From Pycnopodia helianthoides (taxonomy: Eukaryota > Echinodermata > Asteroidea > Forcipulatida > Asteriidae), in contig CM063255.1 in NCBI GenBank assembly GCA_032158295.1, forward strand, positions 620,001-684,000: a stretch of DNA of 64,000 bases. Reading direction: 5' to 3'. The translations under genes were made by a program, and so were the position numbers. Of this stretch, positions 18,430-48,800 are shown one piece after another (the stretch's first letter is position 1; each line of letters begins with the position of its first letter). A model generated the notes under the pieces. That model saw only the letters and a program-made list of their open reading frames with translations. It did not search any database and had not been told where the DNA came from.

Positions 18430-18840
18430 ATTATGTGCGGCCTGAAAGTTTTTAGCCGGCCCATGGCACAGGGGAAATGTTTTACCCGGCCCGAGAAGCC
18501 GGGGAAAGTTTTTACCCGGCCCACGGCACAGGGGAAATGTTTTACCCGGCCCGAGAAGCCGGGGAAAGTTTTTACCTGGCCCACGGCACCCGGGAAATTT
18601 CATATAGGGCCCGAGTAGCAGGGGAAAGTTTTTACCTGGCCCACGGCACCCGGGAAATTTCTTATCGGGCCCGAGTAGCAGGGGAAATTTTTTACCTGGC
18701 CCACGGCACCCGGGAAATTTCTTATCGGGCCCGAGTAGCAGGGGAAAGTTTTTACCCGGCCCACGGCACCCGGGAAATTTCTTACCCGGCCCGAGTAGCC
18801 GGGGAAAGTTTTTACCCGGCCCGAGTAGCCGGGAAAGTTT
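18430..18840 (+). repeat. 60-bp satellite array, about seven copies
   Basis: The unit combines GGGGAAAGTTTTTACCCGGC and CCGAGAAGCCGGGGAAATGT type half-units. It is homologous to the 61-bp array at 19371-22785 but in inverted orientation. Confidence 0.82.
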
Positions 18841-19299: not shown

Positions 19300-19367
19300 A
19301 TTTAGGGCAAACGGTAGAGTCACCGACTTGAAGAGCAAAGGTTAGTAGTTCGAATCCCCCAACTCCC
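19300..19367 (+). repeat. tRNA-like fragment next to the 61-bp array
   Basis: GGCAAACGGTAGAGTCA resembles an A box and TAGTTCGAATCCCCC a B box. Acceptor pairing is unconvincing, so this is probably a SINE or tRNA relic. Confidence 0.4.
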
Positions 19368-19370
19368 CGG

Positions 19371-22300: not shown

Positions 22301-22785
22301 CCCGGGTAAAGGTTTTCCCCGGTGCCTCGGGCCGGGTAAAAACTTTCTCCGGGCCCTGGGGCCCGGGTAAAGGTTTTCCCCGGTGCCTCGGGCCGGGTAA
22401 AAACTTTCTCCGGGCCCTGGGGCCCGGGTAAAGGTTTTCCCCGGTGCCTCGGGCCGGGTAAAAACTTTCTCCGGGCCCTGGGGCCCGGGTAAAGGTTTTC
22501 CCCGGTGCCTCGGGCCGGGTAAAAACTTTCTCCGGGCCCTGGGGCCCGGGTAAAGGTTTTCCCCGGTGCCTCGGGCCGGGTAAAAACTTTCTCCGGGCCC
22601 TGGGGCCCGGGTAAAGGTTTTCCCCGGTGCCTCGGGCCGGGTAAAAACTTTCTCCGGGCCCTGGGGCCCGGGTAAAGGTTTTCCCCGGTGCCTCGGGCCG
22701 GGTAAAAACTTTCTCCGGGCCCTGGGGCCCGGGTAAAGGTTTTCCCCGGTGCCTCGGGCCGGGTAAAAACTTTCTCCGGGGGAAA
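19371..22785 (-). repeat. 61-bp GC-rich satellite array, about 56 copies
   Basis: On the + strand each unit runs GGTGCCTCGGGCCGGGTAAA, then AACTTTCTCCGGGCCCTGGG, then GCCCGGGTAAAGGTTTTCCCC. The period is 61 bp, seen directly because each successive 60-base line is offset by one. The unit is a dimer of two ~30-bp halves, each a GGGCC/CCGGG core followed by GTAAA. At about 21875-22060 only the second half-unit is amplified as a ~31-bp monomer. The - strand has no stop in any frame; because 61 is not a multiple of 3, every frame cycles through the same 61-residue peptide, giving ORFs of 1,220 and 1,196 codons that are repeat artefacts. Confidence 0.95.
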
Positions 22786-24649: not shown

Positions 24650-24890
24650 ATGGCAGGTACAGGTGCAAACAGTATACCACTTGGAACCCTTCATCCTATT
24701 CTGCGTGGTCAAAAGGTGCCAGGAGGTGGTATAACGGGTCCGATTGGGATGACTATGATGGGTGGAAGCGGTGAAAGCTCCATGTTGAACGCTGCAAGAG
24801 AAGCAGCTGCACGGGTTACAGCGAACATCATGGGGAAAAGACCCGCTACCAACGTGGGAGGAAATGCCGGCAATGCAGCTAAGTCCATGG
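24650..24890 (+). CDS. SF1: SF1 exon 1 (N-terminal region)
   Basis: Starts [12 protein letters not shown], comparable to MATGANATPL of vertebrate SF1, then a Gly/Ala-rich stretch without known domain. Donor GTAGGT, phase 1 out. Confidence 0.88.
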
Positions 24891-27800
24891 GTAGGTTTTA
24901 TGGATAAGGGAAGATCGTTTAAGGGTATAATTTGATACAATGGCCAAGATTAAACTAAGATATTTTGTGTGCAATTTGTGCTCAAAAGTGAAACAGATAT
25001 TAACATTAAATCTTTTGACTTTTTTTGTGAAACTAACAAATAAACTCACAAACTCCATTAATAAATCTAGTCATAAAGAGGCCTGACAACTAAAAAAAAA
25101 ACGTTGGGTGAATGAAAACAAAGTTAGGGTCAGATTGGTTTTCGCAACGTGTAGTTGCGATAATCGTAACCCTCCATCCTTCCGACGGTCGGGAGGATAA
25201 TCGTAACCCTCCATCCTCCCGACGGTCGGAGATGGAGGGGATAATTATGATTATCGCAACTGCGCAACGTGATGCTAATTTCTAGCCAAAATTATTAAGA
25301 AAGATACAATAAGAATGAACTTCGAATCCATCTGGTTTAGCGAGGTGCAGCGGGTACCAACAGGAATTTGATTCTCCAAAACTTGCTCTGAGGTGTGTTT
25401 TGTAGATTCAAAATTTTGACAATCTTGGATTTGGATGTTCCTTGTCATCTCATCCATTTGTGATTTGTTGTGTTACATAACAAATAAAAACAATACAGCA
25501 CTGAAGTGAAGATTGGTATTGGTAGTTGTACATGGATGTAGTTAGGCGGAGTATCCAGCCTACATGTACGTGTAGTTGACTGTACAAACGATGATGTTTT
25601 GAGGTACATGTAACACATCAGTTAGTTTAACTTTAAAGGCAGTGGTTAGTTAGCCGGCAACTTAAAATGATCCCAAACACTATTTTGCCAGCAGTCCTCT
25701 CTAAGTCTAATCTTGGTCAATTTTCGAGAGACAAAGCATTTTCCAGCAAGTAGACTATTTTGCAGTTTTTGCCTCCAGTGGTAGAAATGACTGGTACCTT
25801 GCAGGCGGTCTTCTCTGGTCATTACATGCATTCAAGACATTTAAAATTCAATACATTTATCTTTTTAACTTGTTTTTTATAAATGAATTTTCCTTATTTT
25901 GGGGCTAGATGTAGAGCATGACCACATACATGTAAGGGCTACGATAATTGTGACGATCCTCCTAAGGAATACAAGGAGAGCCATAAACTGCTCTCCTTAA
26001 ATTGATGCAAGGAGAACTCTTTATTTTATTTATTAATTTATTCATTTATTTATTTTTGACCAAACCAACAGCGAACTCCTCAAACTTAGTGCCAGTCAGA
26101 AGCCATACAACCATTAACTGCCGTGTAGTCAGGGATCACACCCAAGTTTACAATACAACCTGGGAAGCGGCAGCCACGGGATCACCTTGAGGGGATGCAA
26201 CTTTTTTAGTTTTAAATGTCAAGTATTGAACCACAAAGGAAACTGACTGGGTAAATTTCCAATAGTTCGGGGTTGAACTAAGAAAAATTTACTAGAGCGG
26301 GATTTGAACCAACGACCTCTGAATAAGTTGTTTATTAACATTTTCTACAGACTCGTCAAATTGGCCTCCTGACAAGAAACGTAAGAGAAGTCGTTGGGGA
26401 GGAGAAGAGACAAAGACTGTGGGAGTTGCATCCGTTATTCCATCAGGACTCAACAAAGACCAAGAGAAACAAGTATTAAGTAAGTAACACCCGCAAATAT
26501 TCAAAGAAATCCATTAAGCAATTTATTAGGATCCTTTCTCACTCAAAATCCAACACTAAACTATGGTAACTCAACTCCCCTGAACTGGTGGACTCTGATT
26601 ATGGTGGTATGCCTGATCCCATGTAAAGATCCGTTTACTAGTGCAGTCCCCAGTTTAACACCATTCAGTAATTCAACACCCAAACTGTTGGACTCTGATT
26701 ATGGTGGTATGCATGATTCCATGTCAAGCTTAACCAGTTTGCTGATGCAGTCAGATCCAATAGAATCACAGAAAACATGCAGTTGGATTTTGATGGTTTG
26801 AGGGTAGTTCGGTTAAGAAGTAGATTTATCTGTATCCTCAAGTGATGAAATGAAAGTGTCGTCTGTTTCATGAGCCAATCTTGTTTTATATTAAGTGTGT
26901 TGAGAGGTACGGTACAACTTCAATATTTTGACATTAATGCTAACCACTTAACCTAACAGGCATTTAACAGGCATTCTGCTGAATGCACACAGTTCAATAA
27001 AAGATAAAAGTGTGCAGCATGAAGAGTGCAACAAATTCAAGGAGGTTAAGGGGCCTAACTTGACCTCATCTTAACCCTATTGAAAAGCTCCTGAAGACAA
27101 TTAAATTACTATCATTGTACATGTACTTTTTTCCAAGTAAGTAATATGATGATTTATGTTGGCCCTAATGTATTAATTTTTGTGTTGTGTTTGCTTCTCA
27201 TATACCCATAATTTCTGTTTACATGTGCTGCATACATTGTATTAGAATTTACAATCAAACTCATTTTTAAATTATGGTGATTTTTCCATCTTGAAATCAT
27301 TTGTATCATGAAGAACTTTAAATTGTACATTGCAATGTTAATCAATAACCAGTCCTGAAACGTATCCGTATTTTCAAAAGCTCTTTCAGTTGGCTTTTGA
27401 TAAAATATAAGAATTTCTTGTGAAGTTATCCATCATCAAAGAAGGTAACTTTGCTTAAACAACACGGATTATCTTCTTCTCCTCCTTTTTATCAATTAGT
27501 ACTTTCTTCCAATCCCAAAAGATGGTGCTTTGACTGAAACAAATGCCCTGACTTTCATAACTTCATTAAGTTGTGGGACCCAATCCCATGGCCTTGATTT
27601 TGACAAGCTTTCTAAGACTTATAGGTTTTGGAATCAACACAATTTCTTTATCAAGGGAAGATTTTTTGATCCATCCAAATCAAAACCATCTCAGGGTTTT
27701 CCCTGATGCACAAGCTAGCGTATCAGGCCGATAAACCCAACTACATGTACGGGCGTAGCTACTAGATGCATAAAAAAAAACTTTAAAAACAAACATCAAC

Positions 27801-30800
27801 AACAGGATTTTTTATATTTTTTTATGACTTTTAAAATTAAGGTCAAAATCACAAAAAGCATAAAATGGAACCATTTTAAATACTTCAGATTGCATCGTAG
27901 AGCTTTTAAAACCAAACATGTTAAACATGAAGTAAAATAATTGCCAAGACCTTGTTCCAATTCAGCGTCCTTCGACCTAACTTGCACAATTTGGGTGCAG
28001 AATGGCCCACAGTTTAAAAAAATACTGGGGAGAGCACTGTGTCTAATTAAACTTCCATGATTGTTGTTTTTTTATTTTTATTATTATGAATTGGTTTGCA
28101 TTTGGATGTACTTGATTGTGTGTTTCCCTTTTCTAACCTTATTCAAAACTCCACAGTGCACTTGCAGATTGAAGAGATAGGCAGACAGCTGCGATCAGGT
28201 GACCTTGGGATTCCATCACAAGAGGATAGGTTTGTCTAACCACAGTGTAACCAGTTTCTTTCCTTCTCAACTTTTAATTCTCTCATTTTTGTTGTTGTCA
28301 CATTTGCTGGATAGTGGATTTAGTGCGTCAGTCAAATTGCTTAACTTGTTTTTATTACAGAGCTTTACCCATATTCTCAGAGTTCTGTTGGAAAAATCCC
28401 TGTAAGTGTAATATATCGGACAGGGAACTATTTTGTTCAGCAATTTTGCCAAGCAAAAGATTTAGACTGAACTTGTTTTGTGCACACTATGAATGCTAAT
28501 ATTGAGTAGCAAATGATGATGCTTAAGTAGCAACTGATAGCATTTGCTACGCTACTCAACGGAAATCTTTCACTGTCTGATTATTATGATAAATGGACTT
28601 GAATTAATGGACGTATAAACCGGCATCTCGTATCTTCCGAGCTCGTATAAACAAGAGACGACTCTATATGAAGAACATTTATATAAATGTATCTTCAGGT
28701 ATATTTTAATAAATACACACAAATGTTCTTGAAAGAAGTAAAGTAGTCACCAAGAGAGAAAGAATTGGTAATCAATGACTAGAAACACATGGTCTGTAGG
28801 AAAGGCTGTTGTAAACTTGTTGAGTTAATGATCTTAGGTGTATACATCGTTTGTGCTGAAGCCGATTAGCACCTTACCAATATTGGTTATTAATTTATTT
28901 AAAATAGCAGAAAATTATGTTTTAGTCGATGAAATGCTCTTTGATCTACTTCTCTAATGCTGAGGATACTTTTCCAAGAAGTTCCTTGAAATCTAGAACT
29001 CTGGGGTATATGAAAAGTTGGAAAAAGCCATCATTTCAACATACCTCCCAAAATTTGGATTCTAGTTTCAGACCTTTTTGTCAGTAATGACTTCCTCCCC
29101 TGTAATAAACTTGTAATTGAGTTTGTGATGAACCAGCTGTATAGGGGCGTAGTAGTAACTTGACATTTCATCACAAGAACAACCCTAAAGCCCGGTTCAT
29201 ACTTCCTGCGAGTGTGAATGCGAAGTGAATTTTGACGTCAGAGCTCTGTTTGCTGCGAATGTCTCGCAGGAGTTGAGCACATCTCAACTGATGCAAAGCG
29301 TTTGTTGCGAATTTGTGACGCCAAAATTTGCTTTGCATTCGCAGGAAGTATGAACCAGGCTTAACAGTGCTCAAAATTAACACTGGAGGTCTGAGGCCAG
29401 TGGTTTTAGCATCGGGCCTGTACACCCAGGAACAGACAAGTCCGGCGGTCTTGTGTTTTTGACCAAGTGTTGACTTTCAGTCTGATAAATCTCTTTCTGC
29501 GAGTACTAAAGAATTCTCACCCATAATACAAATGAGATAAATCTTCTCTTAGTGCTTGTTCAAATTTAAACAGTTCAAATCCTAAACTATGTACATGTAG
29601 GTAAATATATATTTCTCATTTCAATGTTGGGCTTGTAATAAAACATTCTGGTCCAGTAAACATTTTGATCTACATTGTACCTGTACATGTACAAGCCCTG
29701 CGGTCCTGTGGATTTGACCCTCTATTTCAAGCCCTGGGTCATTGTAGTGTATATTGATTAATAACTAATAAACTCATGTTTAGAACAGACATTGCTGGTA
29801 AACGGCAAAGCGGCCAGACTTACTGCAGGTTTTTCTTGCTGGTAAACGGCAAAGTGGCCAGACTTACTGCAGGTTTTCCTTGCTGGTAAACGGCAAAGCT
29901 GCAAGACTTACTGCAGGTTTTCCTTGCCGGTAAACGGCAAAGCTGCAAGACTTACTGCAGGTTTTCCTTGCCGGTAAACGGCAAAGCGGCAAGACTTACT
30001 GCAGGTTTTCCTTGCTGGTAAACGGCGAAGCGGCCAGACTTACTGCAGGTTTCTTGCTGGTAAACGGCAAAGCGGCCAGACTTACTGCAGGTTTCTTGCT
30101 GGTAAAATGGCAAGTCTCCTGTCTACTGTTAATCCTTTAATTGACGTGGATCAATAATTTTTTTTAAATTCCAGAAGTTTTTTTCCATTTAACTAGGTTA
30201 TGTTTGACAGAAATCTGAATACATTTAAGTACTTCCAGGCATACCTAAAGTTTGTTTCTTAAAAAAGTTGCTTTCGGAATAAGAAAGAGGTTGGTTCTAT
30301 AAGACAGATGTTTAATGACCACCTTCTCTCCCAATCAATTTAACAATTTATTTTCCACAATTCAGAGTTCCTAATTGACTTTTTTTTCCAACAAGGTTTG
30401 TGTGGATCTGCAGCTTTTGCAACAAGGCAGACTCCATCAAACTTCAGCCACCAAAAATTCAAATAACCAATTTTTACCTCCATTACAAGAATTAACCGTT
30501 CTTTTTTAAGGGCGGCATGGACAGTGGAGAGAAATTCTAACCATTATTTCTCCTGAATATCAGTGACAATTTTTACTTCAAGGCAACCCACTTAGAGAGA
30601 AAGGAGTTGCTAAAAAAATATTTTAACAAAATCATCAAAAAAGTGTTAGACAGAACTTTTTAAGCACAATGAAAATTGCTTAAATAAATAGTGTAGGCCA
30701 ATCTCTTTCAAGATAAGTTTGTATTTAGAGATTAATGACATATTGAACATGTTCCCAATTCTTAAAACTGGTAAGCAAAAACATTGGCTAAGCACAAAGA

Positions 30801-33800
30801 AATCTTGCTTAGCAGAATCGGGTTACCAGCCAAAATGCCATCAAATTTTGCCACCACTGCTCTGCTAATTATTTGCTTAGCAGAGGAAATTGCTAAGGCA
30901 ATGTTTTGCTGCTTAACAGCTTTTTTGAAGTTAGGCCAAGTACCAACATCAGTTTTCGGTGACTGGGTTACTGCTATACGTTTGAATGCAAAGTGACCTG
31001 AAGGTGCACTAAGCACAAACAGAAATCCATTCTAACCATGGAATGCAGTCATTCATTCAGCTACTGTGATCAACAAGTTATTAAAGTGAACATGAAGTTA
31101 GGCCAGGCTGTTTTCAGCTTAAAGGTTTTATTTACAAACAGCAAGATAATAATAGAATTTACTTCATAACTTTTGACTCTTTTTGTTCTCAAAAGAGTGA
31201 TAAAATGTTGACTTAAAGAAACTTGAAGTGGCTTTTGTTTTTTGACTTCAGACCACATGTATAAAAATAAGGCAACACTATATTAATATCTGAACTAATT
31301 GTTATAGTGTAGTTGATAGGAAATATTTGAGGTTTTAAGGTAAAGTTTTCCAGCTAACTCTTGTGGCTGTTCACTGCAGCATATATGTTTGGTTAATGCC
31401 CAAGTACCAAGGTGTCTTAATGATTGGCGAATTAATACATTTACTTGGTGAAGGATTGAGGTTGATTGGAAAATGGAAGGTCTTTGTCATAAAAACCTAG
31501 GCCTGTTCTGGCCTTCTTGTTTTCCATACTTCTATGTGCTGTAAAACCAGACATTTGTTGTAAAAAGTGGCAGTAAGGCATAAGCTTTGATTTTACACAT
31601 AAATCAACAAAATGGAGACATCTTCTAACATTGAGTTCTTTTTATTTTCTACCTCCCAGATCTCCATCTCCTGAGCCAGTATATAACCATGAAGGCAAGA
31701 GGTTAAATACTCGTGAGTATCGTACTCGCAAGAAGCTAGAAGAGCAACGTCATGTTCTCATTCAAGAAGCTATGCTGGTCAACCCAGAGTATAAACCACC
31801 TGCAGATTACAAGTAAGGGATGGGTCAGGTCATTAATGCAGGAATGATGTCACATTGATGTGTTGGTTATTTGGGCATTGGTTGGTACACAGCTTGAAAG
31901 TCAATGGTCGGAGATGCACCTGCTACTAGCGTTGTGGTGGGCAGAACTAGAAAGATCTGTGTATTTCAGTCGTTTTTTAACTCCAAATTAATGTGTTTCT
32001 TGGCTGTCTGTTGAGCACATTGAGGTCCCTGGTACACAGTTTGAAAGTCAAGGGTCGGAGATGCACCTGCTACTAGCGTTGTGGTGGGCAGAACTAAATG
32101 GATCTGTGTAATTCAGTCGTATTTTACTCCAAATTAATGTGTTTCTGGACTGTCTGTTGATCACATTGAGGTCCCTGATGGAATGTACTTTGTAAGAAAG
32201 TATAAAAAGGGCTCATCAGGCCGGTGTTTATATCCGGTTTCATTGGCATTGAACGACTGAGAACATTTGTATTCCCCCTGGACAGGATGCCAGTCCATTG
32301 CAGGTTACTCCCTGGCTCTCACCGTGTGGAGAGAAGCAATAGACACAATCGGCGACCGTAGTCACGTGACTCATAGTGGGTATAAGATGTAAACAAACCA
32401 AGCAAGCAATATGCAGTGTGCATGGAAAAGCATGGCTGCTTCCTACCTTACGGCAGAAGCACTCGGGCGTAGCCATGCGTTTCCATGCACACTGTTCGTC
32501 GCTTGCTTGGTATGTTTACATTTATACCCACTATGAGTCATGTGACTACGGTCGCCAATTGTGTCTATCATGATAAAGAGCACAAGGACACAAGTGTCGC
32601 AACTGGCCTGGCAAGGATTCAAATCCACATTCAAAACGTTCAGAACTTGAGTACACCACCCTAGATCGCTTGGCCACAACACCCCATAGACTGTTATAGA
32701 ATGATTTCTAGTTTTAAAATATTGATTGCTTTGAGTGCTATGGTTAAAACTACGACTCCCGAGGTGATCCTTGGCACATTCTATTTTCTCATGGTGGAGC
32801 GGAGGTAAAATAGAATGCTGCGGGATCACTGAGTGAGTTGTTGTTTTAACCATGGCATGAGTAAAAGCAGTCAATATTTGTTTTTTAACACCCCATACAT
32901 ATATTGTGCCTAGACGTCTAGGTACCAAGAAGCTGCTGTTGCTATGGGTATAGTACATTGGTTGCTATGGGTATAGTATATTGTTTGCTGCATAAACAGT
33001 GCGTCGCGTTTGCACAGCTTTCTAGTAAAAGTAAGACATCATGTGACGCGCTCTAAACCAATCACGAGACAGAATCGTTGTAAACGGTGTTATAATTATT
33101 CTTGTTTGTTGACAGGCCACCTATACAGCGTGTGAGTGATCGAGTCATGATCCCTCAAGATGATCATCCAGATATCAACTTTGTAGGACTTCTTATCGGA
33201 CCACGGTAAGCTAGCTTTCTGCTCCAGTTTAAAGACGCTCAGGGCTCCTTAAGCTTTATAATCTTATGATGTTATGCATATATGTAATTTGACTTGGACG
33301 ACTTCCCACAGAGTTCTGATGAAGGTTACTCATTGGCTCATCCTATGTGACCTGCTGTTTATCTCCTGTGTTTCATCTTCATTTTCACCTCTAAGATGGT
33401 GGTGGGATGAGGTCTTCATCTTAATACACCTCCAAGCATGGTGTTAACTTTGAATATCCTAGGTGCAGATTCACAAAGCTACTTAAGCGAAGACAACTTT
33501 CTGCCGTAAAAAAAGCCCCAAATTAGTAGGAAACCAGTCACAGGCAGTTCTTTTAATATGGTATTTTGACTGGTAACATAATTCTGGTATGCAAAAATTG
33601 GCCGAGTTTGTAGCTCTCTGTTTCAGCTGTTATTAAAAGTGTACCTCAATGAGTACTTTGAAATTGAATCCCCCGTAGCCCAAACCTTGAGTTTGCTCAA
33701 TTGGAAGTTTGGCTGCAGTGTAATTCTGGTGGCTTAAGGTGCTTTGTGTTAATATTGATTTTGATCATTTATGTCTTCAGTGGAAACACCTTGAAGAAGC

Positions 33801-36800
33801 TAGAGAAAGATACAGGAACTAAGGTGATGATCAGAGGCAAGGGCTCTGTCAAGGAGGGGAAAGTTGGACGTAAAGATGGTCAGCCGTTACCTGGTGAAGA
33901 TGAACCACTCCATGCTTTAGTGACGGCTAATACATCAGAAGCTGTTAAGAAGGCTGTTGATCAGGTACAGGTTGGCTAAACAAGTAGTGTAGGTGAATGG
34001 CTCAAATTGTAGATACACCTGTTTTGTTTACACCTGTTTAGTCCATCATGAACAACAAATTGAAAAACTAATCATAATTTCGCACTTACCTCTAAATCAA
34101 TCAACCAGCTCTTTGTGAGCAAAGAGTAAACAAGCTTTAGAAGCTTCGTGTTTTATTCTTTCTCTATTCATATTGGTGTAACAAAAATGTCATACCCAAG
34201 ACTGGAGCCACACACAAAAGAAAGGTAACATGTAAATTTTCCAAGCATTAAATACATGTATGTGGAGGCAATTGCTTCCATACCATGGTGTTTGACTTAA
34301 AAGCCCATGGACTTTATGTCTATAGCTACACAAAGAGACAAAGACAATTGCCCCTGTCATGACTGTCTTTGCGTTGATGTCCTGTAAGATACAGGTCTTG
34401 TACTTCACCAACACAAGGAGGGTATTTGGCCCACACCCATGAGTTTGCCTAGGTACCCTTTGACATTTTAGACATTTTGTTTATAGTAAAACAATTTTAC
34501 CAATATCCGTTGAAAATAAAATGCTGAAATCACCAAATATTTGCAGTGGTTTCTTCAAACCATCAAACATAGCTGTGCACTAAACTCACAAAATGTACCA
34601 AATTGATCTGAATATTTAAAATAAAAGCTATTGACATGTGATTTTTCATAAAGCTCAGGATAAGGGTCTACTTGTTGAGAGGTTTAGTGACATTTGCTAG
34701 CGTGGAATTTTAATCTCTGACAGGGCAAGGTCAATTTTTATTTTGCAAAGGGCACTTCCATTGAAAAATCTTGGGAAACGTCAAGGCCAAGACCAGGGGA
34801 AACAGAGGCCATGGCCTTCAGGGCCTCCATGTAATTCCACGGGTGCATTTGATGACTTGTCTTTAGTTTATTTTTATTGTTATTATTATTTAGGTTCAAT
34901 CGCTGGTTTTTATTCAGCATGCCTGTCTGACAATACTGAAATATTTTTGTAACATGGAATCAAGAAGTAAAGACTTGCTGTTCTTATTTTCTTCTTTCAC
35001 TATCATTTTCATTTTTATGCAAGATAATTTCAGTTAGTGCAAGATAATTTTTTTTAAATTACGTCAACTTCCTATGGTTATTGTTTTACTAGGATCCTTT
35101 CCTCACTCAAAAGAAATCATGGTATTACTCAACACCCACCAAACTGTTGGACACTGCATATGGTGGTATGCTTGATCTGTGTATAAAAGCATTTAAAATC
35201 AGTTTACCAGTGCATTCCTCAGTCCAACACCATACAGTAACTCAACACCCAAAGTGTTGGACTCTGATTATAGTGGTTTGCCTGATCCCATGTAAAGCAC
35301 AATAAGTTTTACTTGTGCAGACCTCAGTCCAACAGAATCAAACAAACCATGCAGGTGGATTTGGATGGGTTGGGAATAGTTATGGATAATGTATGCTTGA
35401 CGTTAATGCTATTGTATGCAGCTTTGCTATGCACTGCTTTGATCTAAACTTTATCATTACTGTGCATGATATGTTTAAACTCTTTCCATTTTATACAGGC
35501 AAGAATATGATATATTGCATGTTACTTCACAACTTACACATCATCCATTAAATGTGATGAGTTTTCATTATGGTGATTTGATATGTAACAAACTTCATGT
35601 ACTAATCTCTTCATTAATCCTCCCACTCTTCGTAAGCATTTTGCAGTGAGTTGACCAACCATTACTAACCATTCAACAGCACTGTTTGTAAATGATGGCA
35701 CAACTGTGCACAGAACTACATGTAACTGTGTACATTGTGTGTACTGTTTAGGCTGGCATAGTTTATCTGTCATTCAAAACCACATCAATGGATGATCTTG
35801 AATGGTCCTGAATGGTCACACAGTAGGAGGGTTGACTGTGTACTATGTACATTACATGTAGATGCATTCACCACATTATATTATATTGCAGGTTGGTATA
35901 GTTTATCTATCATTCAAAACCACATTGGATGATATTGAATGGTTGCACAGTAGAGGTTGACTGTGTACTGCGTAAATGCATTCAGCACATGATACATTTT
36001 GCAGGCTGGCATAGTGCATCTATCATTCAAAACTACAACGGATGATATTGAATGGTCAAACGTAGAGGGTTGACTGTGTACTGTGTAGATGCATTCACCA
36101 CATGATATATTGCAGGCTTGTGTTCACTATCATTGGGTACATGTATATTCGTTCAAAATTTGTTGCGAAAAAATCTTAAATGTTAACCAACAAAAATGAC
36201 CTGTGGTATGAATTCAAAAAGTAGTAATGGTCTTAGATTTCCACCTCAGTAGAGTCTTCCTTTGTGGAGAAAGGTTCTATTTGGATCAATATTACAGCCA
36301 TTACCACTCTTTGCAGTCCTTCAAAATTACAAAACAAAACAATTATGATATTACTTACTGATAAACTATTGTGTGAAGTCTCTATAAAGTAATCTAGCTT
36401 CAGCATTTGGAATTGTATTTTATTCCCAAGTCCCAACTGTCATATACCACTAAAAATCTGTATCTTCTAACTTCAGATATTTTAAGATTTCAGATTGGAA
36501 AAATCTACTTCAGATTTTTGCATGAGGGCTACGATTATTCCATCAGTATCCATTTTAAGATCGCTGTAACTCTGCACACTGTGTATTTATTACTAAAACT
36601 CATATCTGCATCATTTTTATTTAGCGCTTCATTGTTTTGTACTGCTGTTCTTTCATCCAGCACAAGGCTGTACGTTTGTACTGTTTATTTCAAATTTAAG
36701 AATCTTTGGGTAATTTAATAGGCAGTGTCTAACCTAAACCATGCCCTAGAGGTTGAAATGCACAATTCTAGATTTTGATCTTAGATACAAACATCATACC

Positions 36801-39800
36801 TTAGAAGTCCTCCATAGTTATCAGGATTTCCCAGCAAGGACAGAAACTTCTACTGTAGACTTTTCCCTCCCTTAAACTGCCTGCGGGCCGACCTGCATTT
36901 TGCTTGTGCTGCAACAGAACTGTTGGGATCAAGTAGGAAAGCAACACTCAGGTCACTCTAATTGAGAAATCATGTAAATGCCATAAGCGCCTTGGATCAA
37001 GCGTCACCCTGACAGCCACGCTCATGCCACCCACGATCAAAGACCTGTTGCTAAAGCACATTTTGCGTTAATAGCCGTACGAATGTTTATCCTGCCATTG
37101 AAGTTGTTTGTAGTTGAGATGAATTTAAGTTACATACATGTAAGCCAGTTTGAGATATGGTGGACACAATGATATGACACTGTTAGGTTTGGGTAAATCT
37201 GTCTGTATTCACCCAAACCAAACAGTGCTCTCATATAGATAGGTTACAGTATGACATAAATCGGCCATCTTTACGAGCAGTTTAGAACAAACAGTCATGC
37301 GTTTCATGTGAGAACGGCGTGCAACGCGCGCGCATTTCACGAAACTCATTGCAGGATTGGTCAGTGAACAACGCGGCTGCGTTAATAAGTTGAGCGTTTG
37401 ACGCACCTGCAAGCCAGAATGCAATTTGCCCGTAAAGATGGCGTCTGCTGGGAACTACATGTATCTATTGTGTCAACCATATCGTTATCTCAAAAAGGCT
37501 AATGATCTGGGCCCAACTTCATAGAGCTGCTTAATCAGAAAATATTGCTAAATAATTGCCTGCTAAGCAGAAATGAGCAGGATACCAGTCACAAATTGTA
37601 CATGTGGTATGGTAGTTTGGCTGGTAACCTTGTTCTGATAAGCATAATTTTCTTGTGCTTAGCTACTTTTTGTGCTTAAGCAGCTTCATGAAATTGGACC
37701 CTGATCTTGAACTTCAGATTAATGTATTTCTCTACAGTGCCTGCTAAAGATTCACCTGTAGGCCCAGATCACTGCATGTTTGCATCATGTCTTTATCATA
37801 ATTGATCCTTTGCACTGACATCACATGCGGCTACTGTCTGCCTACAATGGTCTGCCAATTTGGTAATCAAAATGCATGCAAATAATGGTGCAGGTCTCAC
37901 CATGCACGCCTTGCTTAAAATGGCTCTGCACCGCAATACATGGGAAATCTGACTGTAAAAATGGCATAAGCCAGATTTATAGAGTAATGATGTCAAACGA
38001 ATTGATTTGATATAAACCACGCATGGTATTCTTCCTGCTTTAGTCTGATTTCAGATTTTTGTTTTGCCCTTGGACAAATCTGAAAAAGCGTGATTGAATA
38101 GCCAGAAAAGTCTATTCAAGCCAACAAGCTTTGTACATGTACATGTAGGTGGCCCTTGTACTTGATAAGATGTTCCTACTCAATTCCAAGGGCCAAATAT
38201 CATGCCTGATAAACCATTTCAATGACTGAGTCCATGAGTCAATTCTAAGAAGATCAATCAAATCAGCTTAAAGTTGTTTTCATTCTCAACCCGTCCGTGT
38301 ACTAACCCCCTTTGCCTCCGCAGTAACTCCGCCCCTTGTCGAACATATCTCAATAGATACGACAAATCGTCTTCAATGGCATCGAAGCGCCCGAGGGTCA
38401 CAACGAGCTCAAACGGTCACAACTGCGCGAGCTTGCTGCCTTAAATGGTACGCTCCGCGATGCTGATATCTCAAGGTACCTAGGTGTCAGTAACAATAAA
38501 AAGTCAATGTTTGTGCTTGCGTACTTATATTGTGCCCCTTTTTTTCTTTTTCTTTTTCTCGCACCATTCTCCCCCTGCCTCCTCCTATGTGGATGTTGTT
38601 TGCTGCCCTCTGGTGTTGTTACCCGGTCTTTGTTTGGTCACCATCGTCGTGATTGTGTTGTAGATCCGTGAAATTATCAAACAGGGGATTGAGACGCCAG
38701 AAGGTCAGAATGATCTGAGACGGATGCAGCTGAGGGAATTGGCTCGTCTTAATGGTACACTAAGAGATGAGGATACTACAAGGTTTGTTCTAATAGCTTG
38801 CTCAATTTGCTTAGCGCAACAAAATCTCTTTAAAGGAACATTACAGAATTGGTTTTTGCTAACAAAACAGTTGCTGGCAGTGTAAGCACTTTATGTAATC
38901 CACCATATACATAAACTGACAAACCTGTAGAAGTTTGAGATCGATCGGCCATCTGGGTCACAAGAAAATAGTGAAAAACCGATTACACATATTTTGCATG
39001 AAATCATAGAGATTTAAAAAATGCATAAAATGCTAAAATGGAAAGTTAGTTTATTCATTTCTCATCACCATGGCATTTCAGACAGAAATATTTCAAGGGA
39101 TGTTTTCTACTATCACCATTAGACCGTGTAAGTTTTATGTAAATCTGTGATCAAAAAGTTTATTTTACAAGTTCTTTTCTTACCAATTCTGTAATGTTCC
39201 TTTAAGCAAAATCAGTTTGCCCACTAGATTTGTTCATTGTATATTGAATGTGATTGGTTTCATCTAAATTTGCTAAACACCAAAAAATATCAGTAAGCAG
39301 AATTAGTTTGCCAGCTAGATTTTTTCATTGTAAATTGTTTGTGATTGGTTTCATGTAAATTTGCTGAGCACAAAGTTCTCACTAAGCAGGATCAATTTGC
39401 CAACCAGACTTTTTCATTGTATATTTTTTGTGATTGGTTTTATGCAAATTTTTGCTTAGCAAATGTGTTGAGTAATATTTCCTGCTTTAAGACCAGGGCC
39501 CAATGTCATAGAGCTGCTTAAAGGCCCTGTACACTATTGGTAAGATCGAAAAACACAATGTTCACAGATTCACACATAACTTACATGATTTAAAGTAAGT
39601 AATGGTAGAAAGGGTTCCTTAAAATATTTCTGCCTAAAATGCTATCAATTCTGAGAAACGAGTAAAACAATAGTAATTATCGCGCGCGATAATTTGAAAA
39701 AACAGAAAACACATAAGATCTCTTTTCACTATTTTCTCGTGACCTCGATGACCAATTGAGCTCAAACTTTCACAGGTTTGTTTGTTCATAATGCATATGT

Positions 39801-42800
39801 TGAATCACACAAAATGTGGACACTGATTTTGAGCTGTTACCAAAAGTGTACAATACCTTTAAAGGTACTTTAAAAGTACACCTTTGGTTTTTGGAATCAT
39901 TCGATTGTTTAAATCCTATAAATGTAGACATTAAAACCAACCAGTGAAAATTTCATTTCGAAAGGTAGGAGCATTTTTGAGATATCGCCAAATATCTGGA
40001 GCGGTTATGTCCATGCAGGAATCAATCTGTAATTGGAATGCACAATCTGAGGAATGTTTTTCAGATTAAAATGTTTTTGATTCCCTCCCTCTAAAACCAC
40101 ATTCCTTAAAAGGGAATTATTTCTTAACATGATGTACATTATCAACAGATACAATGCTTCTTACCAAGTAAGTTTTTATGGCCATTAATTTTTTGGAGTA
40201 TTACCAAAGGTATACCCTCCCTTAATGCACAAAAAGTAGCTAAGCACAACTAAATTATGCTTACAAGAATAAGGTTACCACTCAAAATATCATGTCTCAT
40301 GTACCATCCTGCTCATTTGTACTTAGCAGAACAGTGTCAAGCAACATTTTCTGCATAAGCAGCTCTATGAAATTGGCCTGCATCCATGGTAACAGAAAAC
40401 ACTTGTTGACCAAATGACCAGATGTGATCTCAGATTAGTATGTTGTTTAAAACGGCAGATGAATTATTCTGATGAGTGTCTGCATTTCAACCTGTAAGAC
40501 GTTTTGCTGCAAACTTTAAGGAGGGCCTTCAAGGTTAAATTAAGTTTTGTGACGCACTCATTTTCCAATAGATAGAGTCCTCATGAAAGGGCAGAAAAAT
40601 TACAAGTCTCTAACCTCACGTTAAAATGGTGTAAAATATCATTTTATTTGAAGCTCTTTCAGAGAATAAAAAATTTGAAATACGACGTTATCGAACAACA
40701 AAAACAAATGGGTCTGGGGCTCTGTTGTGCATTCCAGAGAGGAATTATTGCACCAATCAAGAGCTCAAATGCAACCCTGTTTTGATTGAATATTATCAAA
40801 ATTCAGGAATGGACTAAAAATTCTCTGCACAAAAATGTGCAGACCATGTAATTGAAATGTGACTTCATCGATGATTGGACATTGACAAAAATTACACTGG
40901 AAGGATATCAAACACAGAGGCATTTTACACTCATTTAAACAGAGGTCAGAGACTTCTTTTTTGTTTTGTTTTTAATTTTCTGTTGGAAAATGAGTGGATC
41001 ACAAAACTGACCTTGGAGCCATTCTTTAATTATCAATCGTGGGCATAAGTGTTTATGCATGGCTTAGAATCATGATATGCAGTGGACTTTGATCTTCAAA
41101 AGAGCAAGGCCATTTTCATTTTTCAAAGGGCACTGCATTTGGAAAAGCTTACAAAACTATGGAAAACTTTTAAAGGGGGACCAAGGCCAAGACCAGAACA
41201 ACAGAGGTCTGCTTTATGTATTTCAAACGTACAATATATGCTGATATTGCTTATTACACACCTTTCAGAGCAGCAACGCTTATTATGCTTGAAGGGACTA
41301 TCTCACGAAAGTCTCGCTGAGCAGTTTGGTTCATAAAACTCAAAGCCAAAAGAGCAGTTTGGTTCATAAAACTCAAAGCCAAAGGTAGCAAAGCCAATTA
41401 CAAAGCTAACCATCCTACACAGCTGGTTTTAGAGTGGGTCAAAGTTCAGAATTCGGTACACCAAAAGGGAAAGAAGGGTGCGTAGCAGGTTTAAGGTATG
41501 ACTCCAGTATATGTCTTCTTATTACAACAAGACTGTCCTAACCATTTCTGCTAGTGTTGTACTCACAAAAAACAATAGACCCTTCTCACTGACGTTACAG
41601 CAATGGAGGAAGTCTGCCATGCTGGAGTACTATGCACCTGTAGGATACAGCGTTACGTTTAGAAACACATATCTGTGCAGTTTAGAAATGTCTGTGGGTG
41701 ACGTGCGCGTGTAATTCGCTAGCATGGCGAGCGATAAATAGTGACATCTACGTAGGGTCGGAATGAACCTATTTCCTCCTCTTGTGAAATAAATGCTGTG
41801 CTAACTTTTCCTCCGTTTAAAGTTTCAAATTCAGCTGACTCAGTTTGTTTTCATTCCCCCAAGATGTTCCAACTGTGGTGCCCTGACTCATCGTACATGG
41901 CAATGCCCAGAGAAGCAAAACATCACTGGCACCATACAGTGTTCCATCTGTGGAGGTACTGGCCACATTGCCCAGGACTGTCGTCAAAACCCTATGGGTG
42001 GTGGTGGACCCGGTGGTCCCATGGGTGGAGGACCTATGGGAGGACCCAACGGACCTCCACCTAGGATGCAAGGTCCTAGTGCAGCAGAGAAAGCCAAGAT
42101 GGACTCTGAGGTATGGTGTTACATTCTCTAGTCATCATAAGAAGTATAAACAGTGAAAGTAGTTTTAACACAAGACAGTCACAACAAACAACAACAGACC
42201 AAAAAGAACAATGACAGATCGGCAATGTATGAACAAAAAAGAAACATCAATGAAACATCAAACATTACTAAACCTATTATTTGGTTTTTACCCATACACT
42301 GATGTCATGTGTAAAGCACTGTATACTCAGTACTTTCCCAAGTCCTGTGGGAAAAATTCACTGGAATATTACTCAGTTGGGATTCAAACCCACACCTTTG
42401 CCCGTCTAGAGGAGTTGTCTTACCACTAAACCACTGAGATTGCCCGGTAGCTAGAGGACTCGGGAAAGGACTTCAGAAAGCACTGAGTATACAATGCGTT
42501 ACACACATCGGTGTAAAGTTTTACACCAAATATTTGTTATCCCTGATGCAAATTTAACATCTATTTAAAGGTATTGTACACTTTTGGTAACAGCTCAAAA
42601 TCAGTGTCCACATTTTGTGTGATTAAACATATGCATGAACAAACAAACCTGTGAAAGTTTGAGCTCAATTGGTCATCGAGGTCACGAGAAAATAGTGAAA
42701 AGAGATCTTATGTGTTTTCTGTTTTTTCAAATTTTTCAAAATTACTATTGTTTTACTCGTTTCTCAGAAACAATAGCATTTTAGGCAGAAATACTTTAAG

Positions 42801-45800
42801 GAACCCTTTCTACCATTACTTACTTTAAATCGTGTAAGTTATGTGTGAATCTGTGAACATTGTGTTTTTCGATCTTACCAATAGTGTACAGGGCCTTTAA
42901 TACTAAACCTTTCTATTTGTTTCTTTGATTTGTTTTCTTCTTCTGCTTTAGTACATGTCTCTTATGGCTGAGTTAGGAGAAGGACCCCCTATGTCTGATC
43001 CTAAAGTTGGCATGCCTCCATCTCATGGTCATGGTGTCATGCATCATATGGGACCCAGACCTCTTCTTTCAACACCGTCTGGTCAGGGGAATCAGAATCA
43101 TCCTCATCATCCACCACCTCTGGTAAGTCATTGTCTTTCTTCCTCATGGCCCTCAGTGGTTTGTATGTTTGAAATACTGAGTCTTCATCCAGTCTTATAC
43201 CTACATGGCGTGTTGTGGCCGATCGGATAAGAACACCGGACTCAAGCTCTGGTGTTTCTGATCAGCAGAGTGTGAGTTCCAGTCCCGGTCGTGACACTTG
43301 TGTCCTTAAGCAAGACACTTAACCATTATTGCTGCGTCGTTCGGATTGGTCGTAAAGCCATAGGTCCCTTGTGTTGTTGAATGTAGAAGAACCAAGTCGC
43401 ACTTACCGGTTCGCCCCTGGTGTTCCTGGTTTGATTGGCTGCATATTGCGCCAAAGAACCTTGTAAACCATTACATGGTGCTAAGTAAAGGAACAGGTCT
43501 CATACATCAAAAACTTAGCTCCGCATGCCTTGTAAGAAAAAATACTAAGCGTTTTGAGACGCCAATTTGTGTGATAAAGTGCTATATAAGAACTCAGTAT
43601 TATTTTTATTTTGTATAGCAGGGTTTGAAATTTAACAGTCCTCGGTCACCAAATGTGAGTGAAAACAGCGGCGGGCTAGTCAAGATCCTACCTTTACTAG
43701 TCCACTGGGCGAGTCAAAAAAGTGTTCCTTCTCACAATAAATAATTTAAGATGTAATCATAAATCAAGTTTTACAAGACAGAGACCAAATAAGGTATTGT
43801 GGCATCTTCTAGAAGCCTGGGCTTGTGGTTAGATGCCTGATGGACAGACAAACAGAATGCATTATTAGCCAGGTCAATTAATGTTATTAGCAAGTCTAAA
43901 CTTTGGATTTTTCTATCCATGGTTACCTGGAATACTAAGATGGATAAGAGTGTAACTTTGTTGTGGACTTGACCACAAGACATACTGTAATCAAGCCACA
44001 TCTTTTAATATTTGAAAAAGTTGTCTTTTAGTTCCAATTTCTCTTTGTGCTTCAGATGGGTCCAAATTTCCAACCTCCGTGGATGAACAAAGATCACCAC
44101 GGACCCCCAATGCAGAACAAGCCTCCTAGTCTCCTAGGTATGCCCCCTCCTCCACACCACCGAGGACCCCCTGGTGGGGGTGGAGGTGGCGGACCCCCAG
44201 GTCCAGGTCATCCACCAAACAACTTCAATGGCCCCCCACCCCCGGGTCCACCAGGTCAATTCAACATGAATCAACCCCCTCCTGGATTGCTACCTCCCCC
44301 TATGATGCAACCCCCTCCTAATATGATGAATGTACCCATGCCCCCTCCTGGATGGGCGGGGGTAACCTCCATGGGCAATGCCGCCTCCTCCTCCTGCATC
44401 ACAACATCCTTCAGCAGAAACATCAGTAACCATGACGCCATGTAAGTAACTGCTTAAAGGATGACTGTCATCATGATCATACATTTAGCAGCCTGTGACT
44501 GTACCATGAATTATGAACTCTAGCCCAGTTACTGCACGAGGGCCTACGGCTCAGTATCAGATGTAAAGCCATTAAAGGGGACTGTCATAATGATCATACA
44601 TGTAGCATGCCTGGGACTGTACCATGGAATTATGAACTCTAGCCCAGTTACTGCATGGGGCCTACGGCTCAGTATCAGATGTATAGCCATTAAAGGGACT
44701 GTTGTCATGATCATAACAGGCATGTGGCTTTACATGGAATTATGAACTCTAGCCCAGTTACTGCACGAGGGCTACGGCTCAGTAGCAGATGTATAGCCAT
44801 TAAAGGGGACTGTCATAATGATCATACATGTAGCAGGCCTGTGACTGTACCATGGAATTATGAACTCTAGCCCAGTTACTGCACGAGGGCCTACGGGCTC
44901 AGTATCAGATGTAAAGCCATTAAAGGGGACTGTCATAATGATCATACATGTAGCATGCCTGGGACTGTACCATGGAATTATGAACTCTAGCCCAGTTACT
45001 GCATGGGGGCCTACGGGCTCAGTATCAGATGTATAGCCATTAAAGGGGACTGTTGTCATGATCATAACAGGCATGTGGCTTTACATGGAATTATGAACTC
45101 TAACCCAGTTACTGCACGGGGGCCTACGGGCTCAGTATCAGATGTACAGCCATTACAGGGCCCTTACATTAAAGGGGACTGTTGTCATGATCATAACAGG
45201 CCTGTGGCTTTACATGGAATTATGAACTCTAACCTAGTTACTGCATGGGGGCCTAAGGGCTGCCTGTCCCATCACAAAGGGCGCCATCATTATTGTAATG
45301 TGACGGACAGCTCCTGCAGCAACTGGGTTAGAGTTCATTATTTCAGGTACAGAGACATGCCTGCTTTGATCACGAAAACAGTTCCTCTTTAATTGAGTCC
45401 ATCAGTTAAATATTGAAATAAATTAACAGCTCATGATGATACTCAAATTACTTTGACATGAACTTTACAGAAACACCATAAAGAAATGGAGAGAGTTTAA
45501 ATATTTATTGGGTATTAAAACTCCTTTCTAAATATATCTCAGTTTGCCGTTAGTCAGTGTAGTGATTCATGCATTACAGTGTTTGTTTGAAAATGATGTA
45601 TACATTGCTTTTATAACATGCTACAGTTGTTCATGGCCTTGCATTTCAACCCTAGTAGAGTCATTTTAATAGCTTTATTTGTTTATTAGCCTTTGAGAAA
45701 GACTGCTGGTGTCAGGCCATTACCTGTTTTATGCAATATGTAACACAGGTCATTCGGGTTGGTAAGCAGTTTGCAATAGTTATTTCCATTATTTCATTTG

Positions 45801-48800
45801 CTTTATAACATATCATTGAAAAACAAATGTTAAAATTTATGTATCAGAGTGTCAGTGCAAAAACGTTGTATCTCCTAAGGTAGCACTTGCGTTACGCACA
45901 AGTTTGAAATGGTAAAAATGTTGTATCTTGCTTAAAATAGCCCAGATGTACACAAAAAACAAGTCTGCGCCTAAAACAAAAATAACAGAGCACTTTTCGT
46001 GCAAGATACAAGTTTGTTGCAAAATAGCAATACAGCGTATTTGCACTGATGCAACGATATGAGTGCTTCATAAATCCATCTTATTTTGAAATTGTTTGAC
46101 TTTGTTTTGTCTGATTGTACAGCTCTGCAATCATTGACCAACATGCAAGCCTTGGCAATGCCAGTACCTCCACCCCCTACATCTCTCCTGGCTGCCCCAC
46201 CTCCACCACCCCCAAGTAGTGACCCACCACCACCCCCTCTACCAACAAGTGCACCCTGGCAGATCCAGACAAGTGCAGGTAAGGCTTCAATGCTTCCCTG
46301 AGTGATAGGTACTCTTTGAGAAACAATTTTTCACTAAAAGATTTTTTCTGATCCAAAATGAAATAAACAGTGGAGTTATTCTTGAGGTCGCATCTGATGT
46401 GAAACTGTTTTCACAGTTAACCATACTCATTAAGTTTGTATTTTTTTAGGCTTGTGAGGAGTTTGGGATTCTTTTGGCTGGGCAATGTTCAAAATCAGTT
46501 TAAGTACTCTTCTCTGTGGTGACTCCACTCTGTGGTGACTCCACTATGTGGTGACTTCACACTCTGAGGTGACTCCACTCTGTGTGTAGACTCCACTCTG
46601 TGGTGACTCCGCTCTGTGGTGACCGCTCTGTGGTGACTCCGCTCTGTGGTGACTCCACTCTGTGGTGACTCCACTGTGTGGTGACTCCACTCTGTGGTGA
46701 CTCCACTCTGTGGTGACTCCACACTGTTGACTCCGTTCTGTGGTGACTCCGCTCTGTGGTGACTCCGCTCTGTGGTGACTCCGCTCTGTGGTGACTCCGC
46801 TCTGTGGTGACTCCACTCTGTGCTGACTCCACTCTGTGCTGACTCCACTCAAAACTCAAAAGCCCCTGTGTTGTTAGTCTTTGATAAGATTGTTATGCCC
46901 TAGCCTTAGTGGGAGGAACGGTATCAAATCCCTCAAGTCTGTCATTTATGATTAATAGTGGAGGCGGTTAATTGAGCTTATGTCTTTCCTAGGTGGGAGA
47001 CCGGTGGCAACGAGTACCGGCTCTGTCACTACGCCACCATGGCAACGCTTCACACAAGGTATCTCATGTTGTGGCATAGTGTTTAAAGAAATGCATGTGC
47101 CTGCCGCTAAGTTTTGCCTTGTGCCTTTCCCAACCCTGTCATCTTTTCAGGTCTGCTCATTTTTTTCACTGCGTTCTTACAAGAATGTGCCTGCTTCAAA
47201 ACAAAATTAAATCATGTCTGCATTTTTTTTAATGAATTTAATCTGCCACTGAAAAGCCAGCCATTTTGGAAAATGTTTCCATTCAAAATGCTTTAAAGCC
47301 AGAGTTATTGCAACTGCATTGGGAGGTTGGGACAAAAACCAACACCTGTCATAAATTTCTTCAGTCAGCTTGAGGGAAATCAAAAATCAGAAACACAGAA
47401 AAACATCATCTGTCAGAAAATTGGCGTTTGTGCAAATAAACAATCATAATAATGTGTGCTGGCAAATTGGCTGCCAAACATCCGCAGAGAGAAAAACACA
47501 AGATGCTTTTTCCCTGTTTGAAGCTTGTAAATTCACTCTCCAAATGAATTCATAGTTTGTCCATTTATTTACTACTAACATGTTCTTAACTCAGTTTCTG
47601 TTGGAATTCACCATTCATCACCTTAGGCCAAAGTACAATGCAAATTCCATGTATAAGACCTGGGCCCAATTTCATAGAGCCTGTTAAGCTCAGAAAATTA
47701 GCTAAGCACAATCAAATCATGCTTACCCGATTAAGGTTATCAGCCAAAATACCATTCCACATTCACTATATATCAGGAATAAGAAATGTCAGACTTTTAT
47801 TTGGGTTTCAATTTTTTGCTGTATGCCTGTTAACAAAAATAGCTGTTATTTTTCCAAATAAAAAGGAATCATGCTTTTTGATCTAGCACTGAGGATTCTC
47901 TTCCCAAAAGCTTCTTGGAATCTATAACTCTAGGGGTTACCAAAAGGTGGAAATGCCATCATTTTAACAAACCCCTAGCATTTAGATCAGAGTTTCAGAC
48001 CATTTTGTCAGCAATGACTCTCCCCCCTGATTCATGACTGGTATCCTGCTTATTTTTGCTTAGCAGGAACATGTTAAGCAATATTTGCTGATTAAGCAGC
48101 TCTATTTAAATAAGGGTCATGTCACCTGAGGCAGTTATACTTACAAGCAACTAGCTCTAGGCAATCTTCTTGGATATGGAACCTTCACATTAAAATTTCA
48201 CATCATTTGCTTGGAGGACACTGTTCGATTTGTGTGTTGAATTTGTTGTACATGTTGGCAGTTGTGATTGGTCAGTGCATAAAAAGATGGAGCCATTACA
48301 TTGACGTTGATTGAATGGATTGTTATCAACTCAAGTTCTATCAAATCTTTGCCTCATCACCTTGGTACTCGTGTATCTTCTGCAGTTTCTTCAAGGTGTT
48401 GATTGATGACCTGTTTTAAAAAGTGTTTCTCTTTGTTTAAGCGCTTTGAGCACCTTATTGGTATATACGTGCACTGTATAGGACTCTATTATAAAGGAAT
48501 GGCCAAATCAAAAATTTATAGTACATGCAGTCTCAGTACACACAAATGATTCCCTATTTTTGCAAAATTTTCATAAAATTAATACATTTCCGTCCAACTG
48601 ACCAACTTTTATTTTTGGTATTAAGACACCGTTAGGAAATTATCTTTTGACATGTAGGCTGCGGTAATGTTCTTTTATCAAACACTGCAGTCGGTTGCCT
48701 TAAATAAGTTGCCTGTAAGAATGATCGCATGTGAAGGTGTCCAGGTACAAGACGTCATTGGTTTTAGGATCATATTATCCCCTTATTCTGTGCTGTACCT

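Follow-up and report, generated by a model that had tools for sequence, protein, structure and literature searches.

The SF1 gene of the sea star Pycnopodia helianthoides carries two adjacent versions of the exon that encodes its QUA2 helix, here called A and B. Our preferred reading, to which we give a probability of about two in three, is that they represent an old tandem exon duplication kept as a functional, mutually exclusive pair. It is favored by selection on A, the logic of the reading frame, and the anatomy of a predicted distant branch point in front of B. Counting against a coding pair, the coding acceptor of A appears to be the weakest of those we scored, and a stronger one just upstream would lead to a stop. 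SF1 is treated as a single general reader of the branch point.

SF1 is on the plus strand of the window, the whole stretch of 64,000 nucleotides that we analyzed, and most of its exons could be placed, between about 24.65 kb and 50.5 kb (Table 1). The nearest protein is Asterias rubens SF1, at 92% over 176 searched residues despite the presence of exon A in the query; the SF1 proteins of Patiria and Acanthaster come next. Joined with A or with B, the predicted protein carries a BBP-type KH domain (PF22675) and a zinc knuckle (PF00098). By eye, exon 8 has two consecutive CX2CX4HX4C zinc-knuckle patterns, where Pfam gives one. A KH-QUA2 query run against the whole assembly of this animal (479 Mb in 742 contigs) gave three matches, namely, exon 6, B, and A, all at one locus. 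Since the matches are confined to the SF1 locus, a retrocopy, a paralogue, or a second locus was rejected. The window also holds several tandem repeats. A 61-bp unit is repeated 55.9 times with 98% matches at 19364-22767, and a related 60-bp motif is found nearby, at 18444-18822. Later SF1 introns contain a 120-bp repeat of 6.1 copies (44454-45160) and a 16-bp repeat of 21.2 copies (46512-46850).

Table 1. SF1 features in the window (positions count from its first nucleotide)
Feature	Position	Strand	Remark
Exon 1, coding part	24650..24890	+	End by eye; protein start as in Asterias SF1
Exon 2	26351..26479	+	End by eye
Exon 3	28157..28229	+	
Exon 4	31660..31812	+	
Exon 5, start of KH	33116..33205	+	
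Exon 6, remainder of KH	33781..33964	+	Phase 0 at end
TACTAAC, perfect branch-site consensus	38300..38306	+	Branch A 38305; ACTAAC is the STAR/Quaking site core
CAG, competing acceptor for A	38321..38323	+	
TAAC	38324..38327	+	STAR half-site; stop of the upstream-acceptor form; may serve the coding acceptor as branch site
QUA2 exon copy A (alternative)	38357..38475	+	
Intron between A and B	38476..38663	+	188 nt
QUA2 exon copy B (canonical)	38664..38782	+	
Exon 8, zinc knuckles	41864..42110	+	
Exon 9	42952..43122	+	End by eye

An earlier note on this DNA had described a second intact QUA2 exon in intron 6 of SF1, and this exon is indeed there. As the note held, each copy is 119 nt long, enters in phase 0 and leaves in phase 2, is preceded by AG and followed by GT, and has an open frame. 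A recount gave the same protein figures: 26 of 39 residues are identical between A and B, and 18 of these 26 are written with different codons. At the nucleotide level, 75 of 119 positions agree. When the window was searched with A, B was found at an E value of 5e-14 and the next match had 0.8; no match in the window had an E value that would make a convincing third QUA2 copy. We compared the two copies together with their flanks. The similarity ends at the exon edges, so a recent copy with duplicated flanks was not found.

B is the conserved member of the pair. It is identical at all 39 residues to the SF1 of Asterias, Patiria, and Acanthaster, at 38 to that of the brittle star Amphiura, and at 36 to those of three sea urchins, while A matches the same seven proteins at 25 to 26 of 39. 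On its own, A nevertheless finds known structures by sequence: human SF1 with 41 bits and E 5.5e-10 (B, 62 bits), branchpoint-bridging protein with 37.6 bits and E 1e-8 (B, 39.3 bits), GLD-1 with 26.2 bits and E 5.5e-5 (B, 22.9 bits), and Quaking with 25.5 bits (B, 25.1 bits). Going by these sequence matches, A and B are each recognizable as the QUA2 helix of SF1/BBP structures.

The reading frame was said to force a choice of one copy, and joining exons 6, A or B, and 8 in silico confirmed it. Exon 6 joined to A and exon 8 is open, and so is exon 6 joined to B and exon 8. Inclusion of A and B together places a TGA inside B, and skipping of both shifts the frame of exon 8 so that stops are reached. 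A and B are adjacent, of equal phase, and non-functional if both or neither are used, as expected of mutually exclusive tandem homologous exons. By itself, an open frame of 119 nt flanked by AG and GT is nothing unusual; it occurs in 9 of 23 other such stretches in neighboring introns. What is non-random in A is its homology to B and its codon pattern, not the open frame itself.

The same note held that the copy is old and has been kept by selection on the protein. The codon pattern and neutral simulations bear this out. A and B differ at 12 first, 6 second, and 26 third codon positions, of 39 each; by the NG86 method, a dN/dS check on the pair gave a dN of 0.31, with dS saturated. For the neutral null, A was left free since the duplication while the protein of B was held by selection, and 3,000 simulations were run for each of two stop rules. 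When runs were stopped at 44 nucleotide differences, none of the 3,000 kept at least 26 identical residues. In the other 3,000, which ended once first- and second-position differences numbered 18, third-position differences never came to 26, and 2.6% kept at least 26 residues. Simulations with A under an omega of 0.05 to 0.15 resemble the data; with 0.2 a fit is possible, with 0.3 marginal. Neutral decay of A since the duplication is rejected, which means that selection has maintained the protein of A over most of its history. The simulation result is compatible with A having lost its function recently.

We also asked whether the changes in A are residues used elsewhere in the family. The first count gave 13 of 13, over 127 distinct segments, and was rejected as biased; that set held 120 matches chosen by likeness to A. 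With matches chosen by B alone, the count was 3 of 13 (56 distinct segments, p 0.30), and with these pooled with the matches of the 176-residue search that found Asterias SF1 it was 4 of 13 (68 segments, p 0.18). All sets under a stricter filter gave 12 of 13 (125 segments). In its unbiased form the comparison lent no support, and we rest no claim on it. Among matches chosen by likeness to B, 19 columns are invariant, and A departs from 3 of them. The multi-KH protein P0243 was left out of the family and residue-state counts, so that 166 of 167 proteins entered the latter.

What would an A form do? In the residue numbers of human SF1, carried over by alignment, the QUA2 alanine and arginine with contacts to base A2 are presumably A248 and R255. 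Both are present in A. Residues L244, L247, and L250 to R255, which are invariant or nearly so (126 to 127 of 127 segments), are intact as well. Of the contacts in the 2001 SF1 structure, presumably only R240 is changed in A, to lysine, and a lysine at 240 also occurs in the branchpoint-bridging protein and GLD-1 chains. The substitutions K227F, Q228N, M242S, and R249A are all at variable positions. Contact of a conserved QUA2 alanine and arginine with base A2 is reported in PMC2697983, and because both residues are kept in A, the proposal that an A form would prefer other branch points is not supported. From its sequence, we expect such a form to keep the core specificity and to differ in affinity or in its surface for partners.

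The intron between A and B has an unusual layout. The 158 nt before B (38504-38661) are free of AG, against 18 to 120 nt before the other acceptors (12 counted, A's two included). AG gaps of at least 155 nt are absent among 621 in sampled SF1 introns, and there are 4 among 3,429 in the whole window, the one before B included. Within this zone is a pure pyrimidine tract (25 of 25, 38536-38560) that ends 103 nt upstream of B. The best branch-site candidate for B, TACTTAT with its A at 38527, is upstream of this tract, 52 nt from the donor of A and 136 nt from B; weaker candidates are 11 and 23 nt from B. With the splice and branch-site matrices that we used, only large score differences are meaningful, and the branch point of B at 38527 appears as a prediction of these matrices.

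A similar layout is described for OGDH exons 4a and 4b in PMC7969005: a long AG-free zone, a pyrimidine tract far from the acceptor, and, in the intron between the two exons, a branch point close to the donor. There the layout enforces exclusive use of the two exons, with a steric threshold of about 50 nt between branch point and donor. The branch points of OGDH were mapped experimentally and in human are 25 to 41 nt from the donor, whereas the SF1 candidate is predicted and, at 52 nt, is right at that threshold. By analogy, joining of A to B would be hindered by a predicted branch point so close to the donor of A. An exclusive pair at work would need such an arrangement; a dead exon would have no use for it. 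Two other routes to exclusion were discarded: the intron is not very short, and U12/U2 incompatibility does not apply, as both donors begin with GT and by eye are unlike the U12 consensus.

The acceptor side of A is less straightforward. With these matrices, for which large differences alone count, the coding acceptor of A (38357) scores 1.71, the lowest of 12 correctly indexed acceptors, against 7.12 for an upstream acceptor (38324) and 4.82 for that of B; the donors of A and B score 5.3 and 5.4. These scores leave out the donors of exons 2 and 9 and the acceptor of exon 12. The CAG of the upstream acceptor has the branch A of a perfect TACTAAC 18 nt before it, and AGs more than about 8 to 12 nt past a branch point get chosen as acceptors, according to PMC7969005. 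Use of this acceptor would add 33 nt with an in-frame TAA first, and the protein would end in ...KKAVDQ. Inclusion of A brings a premature stop, as in a poison exon, from 38324 only; from 38357 the frame stays open. Another TACTAAC, with a YAG within 20 nt, is found in intron 6 at 35663-35669, and no QUA2-like match was listed there.

These features make an unproductive exon the main rival to an exclusive pair. A would now act as a poison exon: splicing to 38324 would put a TAA right after the KH domain, the mRNA would be degraded, and SF1 would limit itself through its own preferred branch site, the open frame of A being a remnant of an earlier role in the protein. The strong upstream acceptor, its perfect branch site, and the truncated product all speak for this. 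But a poison exon needs no frame, and that of A has been kept with a strong third-position bias. The coding acceptor, moreover, has a candidate branch site of its own, the TAAC with its A at 38326, which is 30 nt before it and beyond the competing AG, and the layout in front of B suits a coding exclusive pair. On balance we consider the poison-exon explanation unlikely.

The two acceptors of A may instead be alternatives under control. ACTAAC (38301-38306) and TAAC, 17 nt apart, match by sequence the bipartite element of STAR proteins such as Quaking, given as NACUAAY plus UAAY in PMC2697983. The window has 24 such sites, 16 on the plus and 8 on the minus strand, so finding one here says little by itself. 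PMC13004596 describes how, in mammalian cells, exons whose branch site is ACUAA are activated by SF1 and repressed by QKI, which keeps a dual site shut. The same source describes RAI14 exon 11, which likewise has an ACUAAC branch site and a nearby second site upstream of an alternative exon. In our case, however, the putative target would be SF1's own gene, with only a UAAC half-site, read from the sequence, as the second site. Exon A may code for protein with one acceptor and be unproductive with the other, a choice that SF1 and Quaking perhaps control. We infer that it is a regulated exon in which the choice of acceptor would decide between an alternative SF1 and no SF1.

Residues typical of A were then sought in other animals. 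The SF1 "isoform X4" of the hemichordate Ptychodera flava (P0001, residues 263 to 301) shares K240, A249, and A257 with exon A, and each of the three occurs in none of 166 other proteins (matches with a readable QUA2, a set largely of arthropods). Across a wider set of 127 segments, to which matches chosen by likeness to A belong (mostly fungi where named), 59 have K240 and 59 have A249. Ptychodera X4 differs from Glandiceps at 9 of 39 residues in QUA2 and at 1 of 61 in KH, an excess with a Fisher p of 0.0008, or of 0.006 when 40 residues of the zinc knuckle are added to KH. Between Glandiceps and Saccoglossus, 1 of 39 QUA2 residues differs. The QUA2 segment of X4 may come from a second QUA2 exon; on these sequences, either this hemichordate would have an A-type exon or the residue states would have arisen twice, by convergence. 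P0247, a contig protein resembling echinoderm SF1, differs from Asterias at 10 of 39 QUA2 and 4 of 61 KH residues and has, of A's residue states, only Q224; another alternative exon or a fast lineage is possible for it. We consider unlikely the full scenario in which an alternative QUA2 exon inherited from the common ancestor of echinoderms and hemichordates is combined with SF1/Quaking competition at SF1's own branch site and an unproductive acceptor.

Ptychodera was also the best match of the search directed at A; no A-form starfish protein was seen in this database, which is clustered at 90%. Since an A form would hide there in the cluster of B, this negative is weak. Together with the coding acceptor of A, the weakest scored, it fits a dead or dying duplicate, long used, that recently lost its acceptor and is now intronic. 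That account is less probable still than a poison exon. The frame, length, and borders of A and the nearly invariant L244, L247, A248, and L250 to R255 are all intact, and in front of B the AG-free zone and the far-upstream pyrimidine tract persist. We find it most improbable that the likeness of A to B is due to chance or that A is a retrocopy fragment or a misassembly, given how far B stands ahead of the next window match, a homology limited to one exon with its own splice borders, and a single locus in the genome.

The kind of arrangement is known. Exons Ab and 3 of U2AF1, which give U2AF35a and U2AF35b, are the closest known case: they too arose by tandem duplication and are used exclusively, in a core factor of the 3′ splice site, and according to PMC5224494 a transcript that has both exons, or lacks both, acquires stop codons and is lowered by decay. 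The U2AF1 exons are in another gene and domain, are 67 nt long, differ by only seven residues, and have been shown in RNA (PMC5224494); in SF1, 13 of 39 residues differ and the pair is known here from genomic sequence. No description of a QUA2 exon pair in SF1 was found in the open-licence papers searched, and within the reach of those searches what is new is the gene, the domain, and an acceptor that refers to SF1 itself.

Returning to the exclusive pair, either A or B joined to exons 6 and 8 would yield an open branch-point-binding protein. Exclusivity would be doubly enforced, by the frame, which can be read directly, and by the layout of the A-B intron, whose anatomy is seen and whose mechanism is borrowed from OGDH; joining of A to B would be inefficient, with the predicted branch point of B about 50 nt from the donor of A. 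The acceptor of A is the probable point of control over its inclusion: here the TACTAAC and the TAAC half-site span the competing acceptor that would give a stop. SF1 and a Quaking-type protein could compete there, so that the gene might set how much SF1 is made and of which kind. The two isoforms would probably read the core of the branch point alike, their differences being in fine affinity or in contacts with partners.

If this is true, the animal would have two versions of SF1 that differ in the helix gripping the 5′ half of the branch site, and the earliest recognition of introns would be tunable across genes. Comparing the two forms, a pair supplied by nature, would be a way to study the contribution of QUA2. 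With U2AF1 as the other case, SF1 would show that two core readers of the 3′ splice site have diversified through exons duplicated in tandem. Through its TACTAAC/UAAC acceptor, SF1 would, in turn, offer a direct test case for competition between SF1 and Quaking and for the control of SF1 by itself.
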